Below, one piece after another: positions 5,955 through 10,574 of a stretch of 10,574 nucleotides of DNA. Below the pieces are notes generated by a model. The model searched no databases. It was given only the letters and a program-made list of their open reading frames with translations, and had not been told where the DNA came from. The stretch is taken from assembly GCA_003696125.1 (NCBI GenBank), contig RFHZ01000195.1, positions 1 through 10,574 of the forward strand. The letters run 5' to 3'. The translations under genes and the position numbers were made by a program. Each line of letters begins with the position of its first letter. Position 1 is the first letter of the stretch. The stretch is from Nitrospinota bacterium (lineage in GTDB: Bacteria > Tectomicrobia > Entotheonellia > J063).

Positions 5955-6647
5955 GTGCAATTTGATGTCATAGCCCAGAAGATCGGTCATCTCCCCCATA
6001 TGGCTCCCAAACAGGGGAGGGTACTCTATGAGTTTATCCTCCAGCATGATATCACCCAATGCCTGGAGCTCGGCTTTGCCCATGGGACCTCGAGCTGCTA
6101 TATTGCCGCTGCCCTGGATGAAAAAGGGGAGGGACATCTGACCACCATTGACCTGGCCGAGGGGGCTCATCCCTACTTCCCCCCGGCCAGGAGCCGAACA
6201 CCCAACATCTATGAACTGCTGGAGATGACCGGTCTGGGACGGTACGTGGAGCCGGTGCTGACCGGGATCTCCTATAACTGGGAGTTGATGAAGATCATCG
6301 AGGCGCAGACCCGACATGGGGTGTGTGAACCGCTCTACGATTTCTGCTATATCGATGGCGCCCATACCTGGGAGACGGATGGCTTTGCCTTCTTTTTGGT
6401 AGCCAAGCTGCTCAAACCGGGGGGATGGATCCTCTTTGATGACCTGAAATGGAGTTATGCGCAGAGCCCGGGACTGAAAGAGGAGGAGTGGGTCAAACGG
6501 ATGCCGGAAGAGGAACGCTGCACCCCGCAGATCGAGAAGGTCTTTAACCTGCTGGTGCGTCAACACCCGGAGTTCGAGGATTTCCAGGTGATGGATCAGT
6601 GGTGGGGGTGGGGATGGGCGCGGAAGAAGAGAAAAACGCTGCTCTAA
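5955..6647 (+). CDS. Class I SAM-dependent methyltransferase (Methyltransf_24-like)
   Basis: A 230-residue soluble enzyme with a Rossmann-type SAM-binding fold. Motif I is ELGFAHGTS (38-46), the acidic end of strand 2 is TTID (63-66, Asp66 expected to bind the SAM ribose), YIDGAH (132-137) is the post-strand-4 motif typical of the Methyltransf_24/O-methyltransferase group, and LLKPGGWILFDDL (152-164) is the strand-5 segment. The acceptor cannot be told; small molecules and sugars are the usual substrates of such enzymes. The start is GTG 5955 with AGGA at 5945-5948. It follows emrB by 42 nt on the same strand with no terminator between, so it is probably in the efflux operon. That suggests, without proving, that it modifies the exported compound or a target of it. 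The C-terminus WWGWGWARKKRK is unusually Trp- and Lys-rich, and its last 104 bases overlap the opposite-strand glycosylase gene. Confidence 0.85.
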   Translation: MQFDVIAQKIGHLPHMAPKQGRVLYEFILQHDITQCLELGFAHGTSSCYIAAALDEKGEGHLTTIDLAEGAHPYFPPARSRTPNIYELLEMTGLGRYVEPVLTGISYNWELMKIIEAQTRHGVCEPLYDFCYIDGAHTWETDGFAFFLVAKLLKPGGWILFDDLKWSYAQSPGLKEEEWVKRMPEEERCTPQIEKVFNLLVRQHPEFEDFQVMDQWWGWGWARKKRKTLL

Positions 6648-7470
6648 AGGCCTCCCAGCGCCTGGAGATGCCCAGCTCGACGATGCCGGCATGGAACTGT
6701 TGGTAGAGGAGGACCAGGGGGATGGTGGAGGGAGGAGGGGTGTTGCAGAGGGCATGGCGGAGCTCCTCTGGTCTGTATTCCCTGACCACGGCGGCCAGAT
6801 CTTCTGCGGTAAAGTCCCGCTGGATCCCCTCCTGGAAGAGTTGCTGGCAGCGGTCGTAATCGTCCCGGTCTGGAACACCCAAAGAGTGCAGGAGCCTTCG
6901 GGCATAGGCGTCGGCGATGAAGACAGGGCGATTCACCGCATAGAGGAGAATGCAGTCCCGCGTTTCAGGTCCAAAGCCGATCTTGAGCTCCTGCAACTCC
7001 TTTTCCACCGCCTGGTGTTTCCACAGGGAAAAGACGTGCTCCACGCCCCCCTTTTCCTGGAGAAAGCGACAGAAACGGAGCAGGCGCCGGCTCTTCTGCC
7101 TGGGAAAGCGACTCGGCCTGAGTAAGGTCTCCAGATGGGGGAGGGGTATGCTGAGGAGGGCATCGATATCAAATCCTTTCCCGCTGGCCTGGAGGAACTG
7201 CTGGAGGTTATAGAGGCAGGTCCGCACCTGCCTCCAGGAGACCTGGTGGACCAGCAGCGCCCCCACGCATATCTCCAGCCGGAAATCGCCTGTGGTATAC
7301 CTGGGCCACCAGGTCTTGAGAGAGAGGGATGGACCTGGAAGAGGACCTGCAGGGGTTGGGGGAGCAAACCACTGCCGCAGGAGAGTGAAGAGGTGGTAAA
7401 AGTTGAGGGAATCACCTTTTGCTATTGGCATCGCTGAGGATCGTTTCTCTTCCCCGGTACGGTATGCCAT
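6544..7470 (-). CDS. HhH-GPD DNA glycosylase, MagIII-like (endonuclease III superfamily, no Fe-S cluster)
   Basis: Predicted base-excision repair glycosylase of 308 residues. The HhH-GPD core runs about 65-268: ALLVHQVSW (71-79), where the family usually has LLxQxxxW, the hairpin KIGFGPET (163-170), and the catalytic Asp187 in FIADAYARR (184-192). The lyase lysine of endonuclease III is replaced by Glu169, and the four C-terminal Fe-S cysteines are absent. Both traits, together with the segments YDRCQQLFQEGIQ (205-217) and LYQQFHAGIVELG (255-267), resemble what I recall of Helicobacter pylori MagIII, a monofunctional 3-methyladenine glycosylase, so alkylated-base removal is likely. Other Fe-S-free endonuclease III relatives remain possible. 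The start at ATG 7470 lacks a clear Shine-Dalgarno, and ATG 7431 (Met14) is equally possible. It lies 16 nt after the DUF445 gene. Residues from about 275 on are a Ser/Pro/Thr-rich tail encoded wholly antisense to the methyltransferase gene. Confidence 0.8.
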   Translation of the reverse strand: MAYRTGEEKRSSAMPIAKGDSLNFYHLFTLLRQWFAPPTPAGPLPGPSLSLKTWWPRYTTGDFRLEICVGALLVHQVSWRQVRTCLYNLQQFLQASGKGFDIDALLSIPLPHLETLLRPSRFPRQKSRRLLRFCRFLQEKGGVEHVFSLWKHQAVEKELQELKIGFGPETRDCILLYAVNRPVFIADAYARRLLHSLGVPDRDDYDRCQQLFQEGIQRDFTAEDLAAVVREYRPEELRHALCNTPPPSTIPLVLLYQQFHAGIVELGISRRWEAFRAAFFSSSAPIPTPTTDPSPGNPRTPGVDAPAG

Positions 7471-7486: not shown

Positions 7487-8089
7487 TTACAGGAAGACCA
7501 GGAGCACCACCTGCACCACCCCGATCAGGAAACCGAGTACCCCTCCCAGCAGTTCGATCGCCTGCAGTTCCCGCCGGGCGATCTGGAGGATCAGGGTTTC
7601 CAGCTTTTCCATGTCGAACTGCTCGATCCGGTCCACAACGATCTGTTTGAAGTCGATGCTCTCTTCGATCTGGGCGATGACACGTTCGGTGACGTCGGGT
7701 AACATGGCCACCACTTCGGTGATGATGGCCCGCTTCATCTTCTGGAGGATCTCTAAGCCGTTCAGGGTCGAATAGAGGGCTGCAATGCGCAGGACCTTGG
7801 TCTGCAGGAAATGATCGATCTTCTTCTCCAGGTTTTGCCGGAGTTGTTGCTGCGATTCCGGGGTGCGCATGGAATTGGCGATGTCCTGGGGGAAAACGAG
7901 TTCGCGCTGCACGATGTTGCCGATACTCTCGGCCAGTTCCCTCTGCCGCTTGGGGATCAACCCCTGGAAGGAGAGTCCCCTCCACCTGATCGGTTGGCGG
8001 GGATAGAAGATCATGCGAATGGCCAGGTAATTGGTAAACCAACCGATGCCGGCGCTGATCAGCGGAATAAACCAGTACAGAGTCTGCAT
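7487..8089 (-). CDS. DUF445 family membrane protein
   Basis: A 200-residue protein of unknown biochemical function from the DUF445 (YheB/YjiN-related) family. Visible hallmarks are the N-terminal membrane helix running into GWFTNYLAIRMIFYP (16-30), GLIPKRQRELAESIG (43-57), a long charged helical middle (about 60-165) that may form a coiled coil, and the C-terminal ELQAIELLGGVLGFLIGVVQ (174-193) that ends in a second membrane helix. The two-helix hairpin-like layout and length match the short form of the family. The ATG at 8089 has AGGAAGG at 8100-8094 upstream. It is the first gene of a two-gene unit with the glycosylase (16-nt gap) and has a strong promoter at 8138-8166. Nothing in the sequence links its function to DNA repair beyond co-transcription. 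Confidence 0.9.
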   Translation of the reverse strand: MQTLYWFIPLISAGIGWFTNYLAIRMIFYPRQPIRWRGLSFQGLIPKRQRELAESIGNIVQRELVFPQDIANSMRTPESQQQLRQNLEKKIDHFLQTKVLRIAALYSTLNGLEILQKMKRAIITEVVAMLPDVTERVIAQIEESIDFKQIVVDRIEQFDMEKLETLILQIARRELQAIELLGGVLGFLIGVVQVVLLVFL

Positions 8090-8129: not shown

Positions 8130-8156
8130 CCTCTGGGATTATAGTCGGTCCAGAGG
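8130..8156. repeat. Inverted repeat bracketing the DUF445 -10 box
   Basis: CCTCTGG (8130-8136) is the exact reverse complement of CCAGAGG (8150-8156), with 13 nt between them. The -10 hexamer (8138-8143) lies in the gap, and the predicted transcription start lies in the left arm. This suits a repressor or autoregulatory site, but 7-bp arms could be chance. Confidence 0.35.
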
Positions 8157-8166
8157 CCGGGTGCAA
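8138..8166 (-). promoter_or_regulatory. Sigma70-type promoter for DUF445-glycosylase
   Basis: On the minus strand: -35 TTGCAC (8166-8161), a 17-nt spacer and a perfect -10 TATAAT (8143-8138). The predicted start is near 8131, giving a leader of about 42 nt before ATG 8089. Confidence 0.8.
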
Positions 8167-8189
8167 GAATTTTCCCCGGAAAGTTCTTG
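8164..8189. promoter_or_regulatory. 26-bp imperfect palindrome between two divergent promoters (candidate shared operator)
   Basis: Reading inward, CAAGAA (8164-8169) pairs with TTCTTG (8184-8189) and TTTCC (8171-8175) pairs with GGAAA (8178-8182). Only T8170/G8183 and the central CC fail, so 11 of 13 base pairs match. The outer arms enter both -35 boxes: 8161-8166 for the DUF445 promoter and 8187-8192 for the nuoJ promoter. A dimeric regulator bound here would contact both promoters. Its identity is unknown. Confidence 0.55.
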
Positions 8190-8215
8190 ACATGCTCGTC
8201 CTCATCTGTTAATAT
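8187..8215 (+). promoter_or_regulatory. Sigma70-type promoter for nuoJKL
   Basis: A perfect -35 TTGACA (8187-8192), a 17-nt spacer and -10 TAATAT (8210-8215, five of six). The predicted start is near 8222. A small palindrome ATGCGCAT (8214-8221) overlaps the end of the -10 box. The leader to nuoJ is about 144 nt and contains an 11-codon ORF. Confidence 0.8.
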
Positions 8216-8328
8216 GCGCATGTTGTTCCCGCCATTTTCCTCTTCTTTGAGATACGATAATCCACATCAGGAATAGGTAGAGCCCTGCGAGTGGAGTGAA
8301 GCGAAAAGACCAGGAGGGAGTGGATCGA

Positions 8329-8364
8329 ATGGAAACAGTGTGTCAAAAGGGGAGTGCAAGCTGA
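8329..8364 (+). CDS. Eleven-codon upstream ORF (METVCQKGSAS), possible nuoJ leader peptide
   Basis: ATG at 8329 is preceded by AGGAGGGAG (8312-8320) at 8-nt spacing, a stronger ribosome binding site than any at nuoJ itself. It ends with TGA at 8362-8364, one base before the likely nuoJ GTG at 8366, an arrangement that allows a terminating ribosome to restart on nuoJ. The peptide has no recognisable family. The alternatives are that the site is fortuitous, or that a one-base shift relative to an ancestral longer NuoJ start has occurred, since the two frames differ by one. Confidence 0.4.
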   Translation: METVCQKGSAS

Positions 8365-8365
8365 A

Positions 8366-8872
8366 GTGGAGTTTCTTCTCTTTTCGATTCTGGCCGTACT
8401 GATATTGATTACCTCCATGCTGGTAATCCTGCACCGCAACCCTATCTATAGCGCCCTCTTTTTGATCGTCAGCTTCCTGCTGATGGCCGGACTCTTCCTC
8501 CTGCTCAATGCCCAGTTTCTCGCCGTGGTGCAGGTGATCATCTATGCCGGGGCGATCATGGTTCTCTTCCTCTTTGTCCTCATGTTACTCGATGTCCGCC
8601 AACTGGAACGGGCCATCCATCGGGTGCGTTACCAACGCTCCTTAGGACTCATCTTAGGGCTTCTCTTTTTCCTGGAGATCGGCCTGTTGATCCGTTCGGC
8701 AACGTTACAGGGAGAGCCGGGCGCTTTTTCTCCGGAAAAGGTCCAGGAGCTGGGGAATATCCAGATCCTGGGGAAGTTACTCTTTACCGACTACCTGTAT
8801 CCCTTTGAGATGACTTCCCTGCTCTTACTGGTAGCCATTATCGGGGCGGTGCTTTTGGCCAGAAGGGAATAA
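8366..8872 (+). CDS. nuoJ: NADH-quinone oxidoreductase subunit J
   Basis: Membrane-arm subunit of complex I that helps couple quinone reduction to the antiporter-like subunits. The protein has 168 residues from GTG 8366, opening [12 protein letters not shown], which matches the MEF opening of E. coli NuoJ. The upstream in-frame GTG at 8354 would add four residues but sits directly against its purine run with no spacing. Visible landmarks (numbered from GTG 8354) are [11 protein letters not shown] (27-37) after helix 1, and [27 protein letters not shown] (53-79), the most conserved stretch of the family, with the mobile third helix. A short loop, a fourth helix and a last helix near the C-terminus follow. 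Length agrees with the family (about 165-185). It is the first gene of a nuoJ-nuoK-nuoL unit, which is unusual because nuoJ normally follows nuoI. Confidence 0.95.
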
Positions 8873-8897: not shown

Positions 8898-9200
8898 ATG
8901 GTTCCCACAACGCATTATCTCCTGTTGAGTGCGGCGATCTTTGTGATCGGGGTGATGGGGGTCCTTATCCGCCGCAATGCCCTCGTCATCTTTATGGCCA
9001 TCGAGTTGATGCTCAACGCGGTGAACCTCTCCTTTGTGGCCTTTGCGCGTGAGCTGCAATCGATGCATGGACAGTTGTTCGTGCTCTTTGTACTGACCGT
9101 GGCCGCGGCCGAGGCCACGGTGGGGCTGGCCATTATTATTGCTATCTTCCGCAACAAAGAGAGTGTGGACATCGACGATATCAACCTGATGAAGGGCTGA
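8898..9200 (+). CDS. nuoK: NADH-quinone oxidoreductase subunit K
   Basis: Small antiporter-like membrane subunit (100 aa, the usual length) of the complex I proton path. There are three helices, about 7-24, 28-48 and 60-83. The two buried acids essential in E. coli are at the same positions: Glu36 in [13 protein letters not shown] and Glu72 in [12 protein letters not shown]. The C-terminus [10 protein letters not shown] is also typical. ATG 8898 has AAGGAG at 8888-8893 upstream. The gene starts 25 nt after nuoJ and ends 19 nt before nuoL. Confidence 0.97.
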
Positions 9201-9219: not shown

Positions 9220-10574
9220 ATGTTGCAGACGATCTGGCTTGTGCTGGTCTTCCCTCTGTTAGGGGCCCTGATCAACGGCCTCTGGAGGCGTACGCTTTCC
9301 GAAAAACAGATCGGATACATCGGCTGTGGAGCGGTCTTCCTCTCCTTCCTCTGGGCCCTCGAGGCCTTCCTCTCCCTGCTCAGCCTCCCGGCAGGGGCCC
9401 GCTCCCTGGAGGTGGTGCTCTATCGCTGGATGGGGGTGGGAGATTTCGTGGTAGAGGTCGGCTTCCTGGTCGATCCCCTCTCTGTCCTGATGACCCTGGT
9501 GGTGACCGGCGTGGGATTCGTGATCCACTGGTACTCGATGGGGTACATGCACGACGATCCAGGGTTCCAACGCTATTTTGCCTTCCTCAATCTCTTCGTC
9601 TTCTCCATGTTGCTCCTGGTCTTGGCCAACAACTTCTTGCTCTTCTTCGTCGGCTGGGAGGCGGTGGGGCTCTGTTCCTATCTCCTGATCGGCTTCTGGT
9701 ATGAGAGAAAATCGGCAGCCGATGCCGGAAAAAAGGCGTTTGTGGTCAACCGGGTTGGGGATTTTGCTTTCCTGGTGGGGATCTTCCTCCTCTTCCGCAC
9801 CTTTGGCACTCTCGATTTTGAGGAGGTTTTTGCGGCAGCACCACAGGTCTTGACCGCCGGGGGAGCGCTTGCCACCTGGATCACCCTCCTCCTCTTTATC
9901 GGTGCTACGGGAAAATCGGCCCAGATCCCGCTCTACGTCTGGTTGCCGGATGCCATGGAAGGTCCAACCCCGGTCAGTGCCCTGATCCATGCGGCAACCA
10001 TGGTCACGGCCGGGGTCTACATGATTGCCCGGACCCATGTCCTCTACCTGCTGGCGCCCGGTATCATGACCCTGGTGGCGCTGATCGGTGTCATAACCGC
10101 CTTCTATGCCGCCTCCATCGGCCTGGTGCAAAACGATATCAAGCGGGTGCTGGCCTACTCGACGATCAGCCAGCTCGGCTACATGTTCCTGGCCACCGGG
10201 GTGGGGGCTTTTACCGCCGGGATGTTCCATCTGGTGACCCACGCCTTTTTCAAAGCCCTCCTCTTTTTAGGGGCAGGAAGTGTCATTCACGCCCTGGCCG
10301 GAGAGCAGGATCTCCGGAAGATGGGGGGACTGCGATCCCGGCTTCCCCTGACCTATTTCACCTTCCTGGCCGGGGCCCTGGCCCTTGCCGGTATCGTCCC
10401 CTTTGCCGGGTTCTTTAGCAAGGATGCCATCCTCTGGGCCGCCTGGAGCCAGGGGAATCTCTTCTACTGGTTTTTGGGAACGATTACCGCTTTTATGACC
10501 GCCTTTTATATCTTCCGTCTCTTCTTCCTCACCTTTCATGGCGAGTCGCGCGTGGAGGAGGCGGTGGAAGAGCA
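9220..10574 (+). CDS. nuoL: NADH-quinone oxidoreductase subunit L (partial, 3' end beyond window)
   Basis: Distal antiporter-like subunit of complex I that pumps protons and carries the long lateral helix. ATG 9220 begins MLQTIWLVLVFPLLGALING. Only the first 451 codons of a family of about 610-660 are present, so the lateral helix is outside the window. The proton-path residues are intact: Glu147 in GWEAVGLCSYLLIGFWY, Asp181 in NRVGDF, Lys232 in GATGKSAQIPLYVWLPDAM, and Lys401-Asp402 in GFFSKDAILWAAW (equivalent to E. coli Glu144, Asp178, Lys229 and Lys399-Asp400). The stretch GPTPVSALIHAATMVTAGVY and the broken-helix regions are also conserved. GAGG at 9214-9217 is very close to the ATG, and AGGAAG further upstream may serve instead. 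nuoM and nuoN probably follow. Confidence 0.96.
   Translation, partial: MLQTIWLVLVFPLLGALINGLWRRTLSEKQIGYIGCGAVFLSFLWALEAFLSLLSLPAGARSLEVVLYRWMGVGDFVVEVGFLVDPLSVLMTLVVTGVGFVIHWYSMGYMHDDPGFQRYFAFLNLFVFSMLLLVLANNFLLFFVGWEAVGLCSYLLIGFWYERKSAADAGKKAFVVNRVGDFAFLVGIFLLFRTFGTLDFEEVFAAAPQVLTAGGALATWITLLLFIGATGKSAQIPLYVWLPDAMEGPTPVSALIHAATMVTAGVYMIARTHVLYLLAPGIMTLVALIGVITAFYAASIGLVQNDIKRVLAYSTISQLGYMFLATGVGAFTAGMFHLVTHAFFKALLFLGAGSVIHALAGEQDLRKMGGLRSRLPLTYFTFLAGALALAGIVPFAGFFSKDAILWAAWSQGNLFYWFLGTITAFMTAFYIFRLFFLTFHGESRVEEAVEE

Follow-up and report, generated by a model that had tools for sequence, protein, structure and literature searches.

We propose, with a probability of roughly 0.6, that the gap between a DUF445 gene and nuoJ in the window (the whole 10,574-nucleotide stretch of Nitrospinota DNA analysed here) contains an ordinary sigma70-type pair of back-to-back promoters, whose upstream flanks are mirror images and which would have in common a 20-bp UP-element/alpha-CTD region. 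Judged by its sequence, the imperfect palindrome lying between and within the two promoters looks more like two mirrored copies of this genome's promoter flank than like the site of a dedicated regulator. It may therefore be an example of a palindrome between divergent promoters that consists largely of two opposed promoter flanks.

Divergent genes and their neighbourhood

The genes on either side of the gap diverge, that for DUF445 running from 8089 on the minus strand and nuoJ from 8354 or 8366 on the plus strand. The minus-strand operon encodes a 200-aa DUF445 protein (7487-8089; Pfam PF04286, E 1.7e-27) and an HhH-GPD DNA glycosylase (6544-7470; PF00730, E 5.1e-9), the gene for the latter starting 16 bp past the end of the former. 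On the plus strand lie nuoJ (8354-8872; PF00499, E 1.7e-45), for which GTG 8366 is a more likely start than GTG 8354, nuoK (8898-9200; PF00420, E 1.6e-30) and nuoL (9220-10572; PF00361, E 7.6e-89), which is truncated by the contig end. Between 8312 and 8366 there is also a possible leader open reading frame, with ATG at 8329 (METVCQKGSAS), AGGAGG before it and a TGA at 8362-8364 that stops one base short of the likelier nuoJ start, an arrangement that would suit translational coupling. An RNA element was rejected, as a search of the whole window against Rfam returned no match at E <= 1, and the predicted nuoJ leader folded no better than shuffled sequences (z +1.55).

Elsewhere in this genome (contig C290, 4370-14441) there is another complex I membrane-arm cluster, whose nuoL is 66% identical to that of the window and whose order is L/M-like, L/M-like, J, K, L and then two further antiporter-type subunits; DUF445 does not adjoin this nuoJKL-containing cluster. 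No DUF445 match was found in the four class-level relatives examined, and nuoJ, present in three of the four, lies within longer nuo clusters, next to other nuo genes rather than DUF445, so that the DUF445-nuoJ intergenic region has no counterpart there. Likewise, DUF445 relatives in unrelated phyla (25-45% identity) had no nuo genes, nuoJKL included, within the flanks examined, and the gene pair was thus not kept in any relative examined. One distant genome (G026, 7169-10582) has HlyD, MFS and DUF445 genes adjacent on one strand; in the window HlyD-MFS and DUF445 are less than 2 kb apart, in an order and orientation unlike those of G026.

A predicted back-to-back promoter pair

The promoter scan placed the nuoJKL promoter on the plus strand, with a -35 box TTGACA at 8187-8192 and a -10 box TAATAT at 8210-8215 that is preceded by a TGn extension (8207-8209). 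Facing the other way, the DUF445 promoter, recognised by direct reading and by a promoter-pair scan, combines a -35 box TTGCAC (8161-8166, minus strand; 3/6) with a perfect -10 box TATAAT (8138-8143; 6/6). Both spacers are 17 bp, and the two promoters match the consensus at 10/12 (plus) and 9/12 (minus) positions. The minus promoter does not appear in the standard scan listing because its -35 box matches at only three of six positions. The sequence-only reading had described two near-consensus divergent promoters: the pair itself is well supported, with 20 bp between the -35 hexamers, but 'near-consensus' is generous for the minus promoter given its -35 box. Indeed, a back-to-back pair within 40 bp arose in only 0.04% of shuffled gaps, which makes the promoter pair better supported than the palindrome. 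From these boxes, transcription would be expected to start near 8222 on the plus strand and near 8131 on the minus strand.

It is highly implausible that the minus side is instead a sigma54 promoter. On direct reading, GGGGAAAATTCTTGCA does show the GG-N10-GC spacing on the minus strand, with a -24 GG and a -12 GC correctly placed, but the remainder of the -24 element is unlike TGGCAC, such short matches are frequent by chance, and a perfect TATAAT stands at a spacing of 17.

Promoters of the same kind, and pairs of them, recur in this genome. Exact TTGACA-N16-18-TATAAT was found 18 times against 1 in controls, and the back-to-back arrangement TGTCAA-N8-38-TTGACA at 17 places against 1, with 6 of these 17 exact pairs separated by 20-22 bp, as compared with 20 bp in the window. 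With looser boxes, 10 back-to-back pairs were counted against 0.33 expected in a 565-kb sample, which covers about 13% of the 4.18-Mb genome and in which contigs bearing strong promoters are to some extent over-represented; five of the ten, besides the window's own, lay on contigs that had not been picked for strong promoters. Four class-level relatives together had 31 back-to-back pairs against 7 in controls, and a good many of the other bacteria searched, but not every one, also showed an excess. These excesses indicate that the back-to-back layout is a normal arrangement of predicted promoters in this genome and nothing out of the ordinary in the window. A second divergent pair is in fact found in the window itself (2590-2702), between SBP5 (minus) and HlyD (plus), with TTGACA at 2617 on the minus strand and TTGACC at 2673 on the plus strand; an 8/10 palindrome centred at 2702.5 in that gap adjoins the plus -10 box.

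Symmetry, promoter flanks and the search for a regulator

Direct reading and a script both bore out the 26-bp palindrome reported earlier, which occupies 8164-8189 (CAAGAATTTTCCC followed by CGGAAAGTTCTTG), is centred at 8176.5 and pairs at 11 of 13 positions. The earlier judgement that it is improbable by chance holds for the gap taken alone, in which a palindrome of at least 11/13 appeared anywhere in 0.3% of dinucleotide-shuffled versions (p about 0.003), and one scoring as well at any arm length in 0.8%; overall, however, the symmetry is only modestly above chance. We consider it unusual yet not compelling. An intrinsic terminator was rejected as an explanation, since neither arm is followed by a T-tract and the two operons point away from the palindrome.

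The whole window contains three palindromes of at least 11/13 against 0.14 expected per shuffled window. The other two fall in coding DNA, one of 12/13 at 9108.5 in nuoK and one of 11/13 at 7223.5 in the glycosylase gene, and equal or beat the intergenic one in pair match. A 352-kb genome sample yielded eight intergenic positions of 11/13 grade. A dispersed repeat accounted for four of them, and a single AT-stem hairpin with an A-tract after it for two that overlap; the others were a GC-stem hairpin and the site at 8176.5. Among 53 divergent gaps in the 565-kb sample there were four palindromes of at least 11/13, against 0.1 in shuffles, two of them copies of that repeat and one the 8176.5 site. 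A perfect 26-bp palindrome, TAGGGGCGCAGCGCGCTGCGCCCCTA, occurs with its variants at 45 places in the genome (0 in controls) and is intergenic in the sampled contigs (C30, C32, C48, C50, C118 and others); we regard it as a REP-like dispersed repeat.

Could the symmetry then be mere coincidence, with independent promoters and a common region of no importance? The two further palindromes in the window's coding DNA speak for this, as do the approximately 0.05 palindromes of this grade per kb in the coding DNA of the genome sample and the fact that the search covered the whole window and every feature. Yet we think it decidedly unlikely, in that the arms fit the flank profile described below, so that the A-tract halves, if nothing else, probably matter for promoter strength.

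UP elements are A+T-rich sites for alpha-CTD located directly upstream of the -35 box. In 66 TTGACA promoters of this genome, A+T reaches 67-76% at positions -7 to -5 before the -35 box (background 42%), and C is preferred at -1. Moreover, the 14 bp upstream of TTGACA contain GGAAA in 58 cases across the genome, against 16 in controls, and the intervening gap, which is 4 bp in the window, peaks at 4-6 bp. The plus flank GGAAAGTTC (8178-8186), a UP-like proximal region of the GGAAA-N4-TTGACA class, scored 3.38 bits, and the minus flank GGAAAATTC (8167-8175, minus strand), which mirrors it, 3.31 bits. In the column profile, GGAAAGTTC-TTG outscored 54 of the 66 real flanks and GGAAAATTC-TTG 51 of 66. 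Because the arms match the profile with such high scores, each has the look of a strong promoter flank in this genome. Read outwards from the centre, each arm is GGAAA-n-TTC-TTG, and both carry an A+T-rich tract of the kind that characterises UP elements, located roughly from -40 to -46 and favoured in the genome's promoters. The sequence-only reading had allowed that the -35 boxes themselves contribute to the symmetry; this was right and goes further, as GGAAA and TTC of both arms also match the genome's usual -35 flank.

On the promoter-pair reading, each promoter would use a separate -35 box and a separate half of the 20-bp region (GGAAA-n-TTC), the half serving as a UP-like contact for the alpha subunit of RNA polymerase. 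The palindrome would then arise because the halves are near-copies of one promoter flank that face in opposite directions. Since both putative start sites lie 45.5 bp from its centre, two polymerases would be expected to meet or compete over the common region, where their upstream footprints presumably overlap, and the two operons may be coupled in their basal expression.

The same evidence also sets a limit to this explanation. For a single pair, the column model of flanks puts the probability of an inner symmetry of at least 8/10 at about 0.0014; correction for 17 pairs raises this to 2%, and for 60 pairs to 8%. In the other exact pairs the spacer is not palindromic (a mean of 0.27 of positions symmetric, against a null of 0.23 +/- 0.03), and promoter architecture alone therefore does not yield the symmetry at 8176.5. 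This portion of the symmetry, for which the general back-to-back layout does not account, favours an operator, on which a homodimeric regulator would sit over both -35 boxes and either repress both operons or activate from -45.5 in either direction. We hold this reading as tentative, a possibility clearly weaker than the promoter pair. The 11/13 match, at p 0.003 for the gap, is consistent with it, and the palindrome is an inverted repeat that spans both -35 boxes, an overlap with promoter elements that fits repression. There is also a precedent for a dimer on inverted repeats centred at -43.5, at the Pm promoter of phage Mu (PMC4390567).

Against an operator, the full motif was unique in the 4.18-Mb genome even when up to three mismatches were allowed, and was absent from the four class-level relatives. 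Its parts were no commoner than their reversed controls in a genome-wide scan: TTTCCNNGGAAA occurred 13 times against 11, the outer arms CAAGAA-N14-TTCTTG with one mismatch 3 times against 4, and the 20-bp core, when three mismatches were allowed, 9 times against 9. Of the core matches, that on contig C549 is in its turn a promoter flank, GGGAAATTTC standing before TTGACA. Thus neither further copies of the motif in the genome, as a regulon would have, nor a neighbouring regulator gene, among the ten genes scanned on the contig, were found, and the DUF445/glycosylase and nuoJKL operons have no obvious common role. The suggestion that one dimeric regulator joins complex I to the DUF445/glycosylase operon consequently found no support, given a unique motif, a core and arms at control frequency and a contig lacking a regulator gene. 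A regulator with this single target may be encoded elsewhere in the genome. That a new dimeric regulator switches the window's complex I membrane-arm genes, a second such set in this genome, and the DUF445/DNA-glycosylase operon, together or oppositely, from this one site seems to us improbable. Limited literature searches found no paper linking a complex I/nuo operon with a DUF445/DNA-glycosylase operon through divergent promoters, and no useful functional paper on DUF445. If the operator were real, it would tie respiration genes to a DNA-repair operon.

Comparison with known systems

Dimeric regulators that bind near -41 to -45 offer one parallel. At phage Mu Pm, where Mor binds (PMC4390567), the inverted repeat is similarly placed, that of the window lying at about -45 from the inferred start; the window's repeat differs in being equidistant from two promoters and in having no second site in the genome.

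The bidirectional promoters described in E. coli by Warman, Grainger and colleagues share one -10 element and have start sites 10-23 bp apart, and polymerase competition has been demonstrated at them (PMC12825309). Divergent transcription rests on sequence symmetry there as well, and in both cases polymerases may be able to compete. The window site is nonetheless not of that kind: its -10 boxes are separate (8138-8143 and 8210-8215) and its inferred starts about 91 bp apart.

As with UP elements, an A-tract abuts each -35 box in the window, just as in the genome's other promoters. The window tracts differ in being short (GGAAA, with only AAA or AAAA) and are UP-like by sequence.

The site also resembles back-to-back divergent sigma70 promoters; in E. 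coli, roughly one gene in four belongs to a divergent pair (PMC4469952). The window shares with such pairs the outward-facing promoters, the adjacent -35 boxes and the common upstream region; it differs in that its promoters are predicted and that its common 20 bp are nearly palindromic. In a lineage that has been little studied, the analysis points to a recurring promoter layout in which about 20 bp separate back-to-back -35 boxes.
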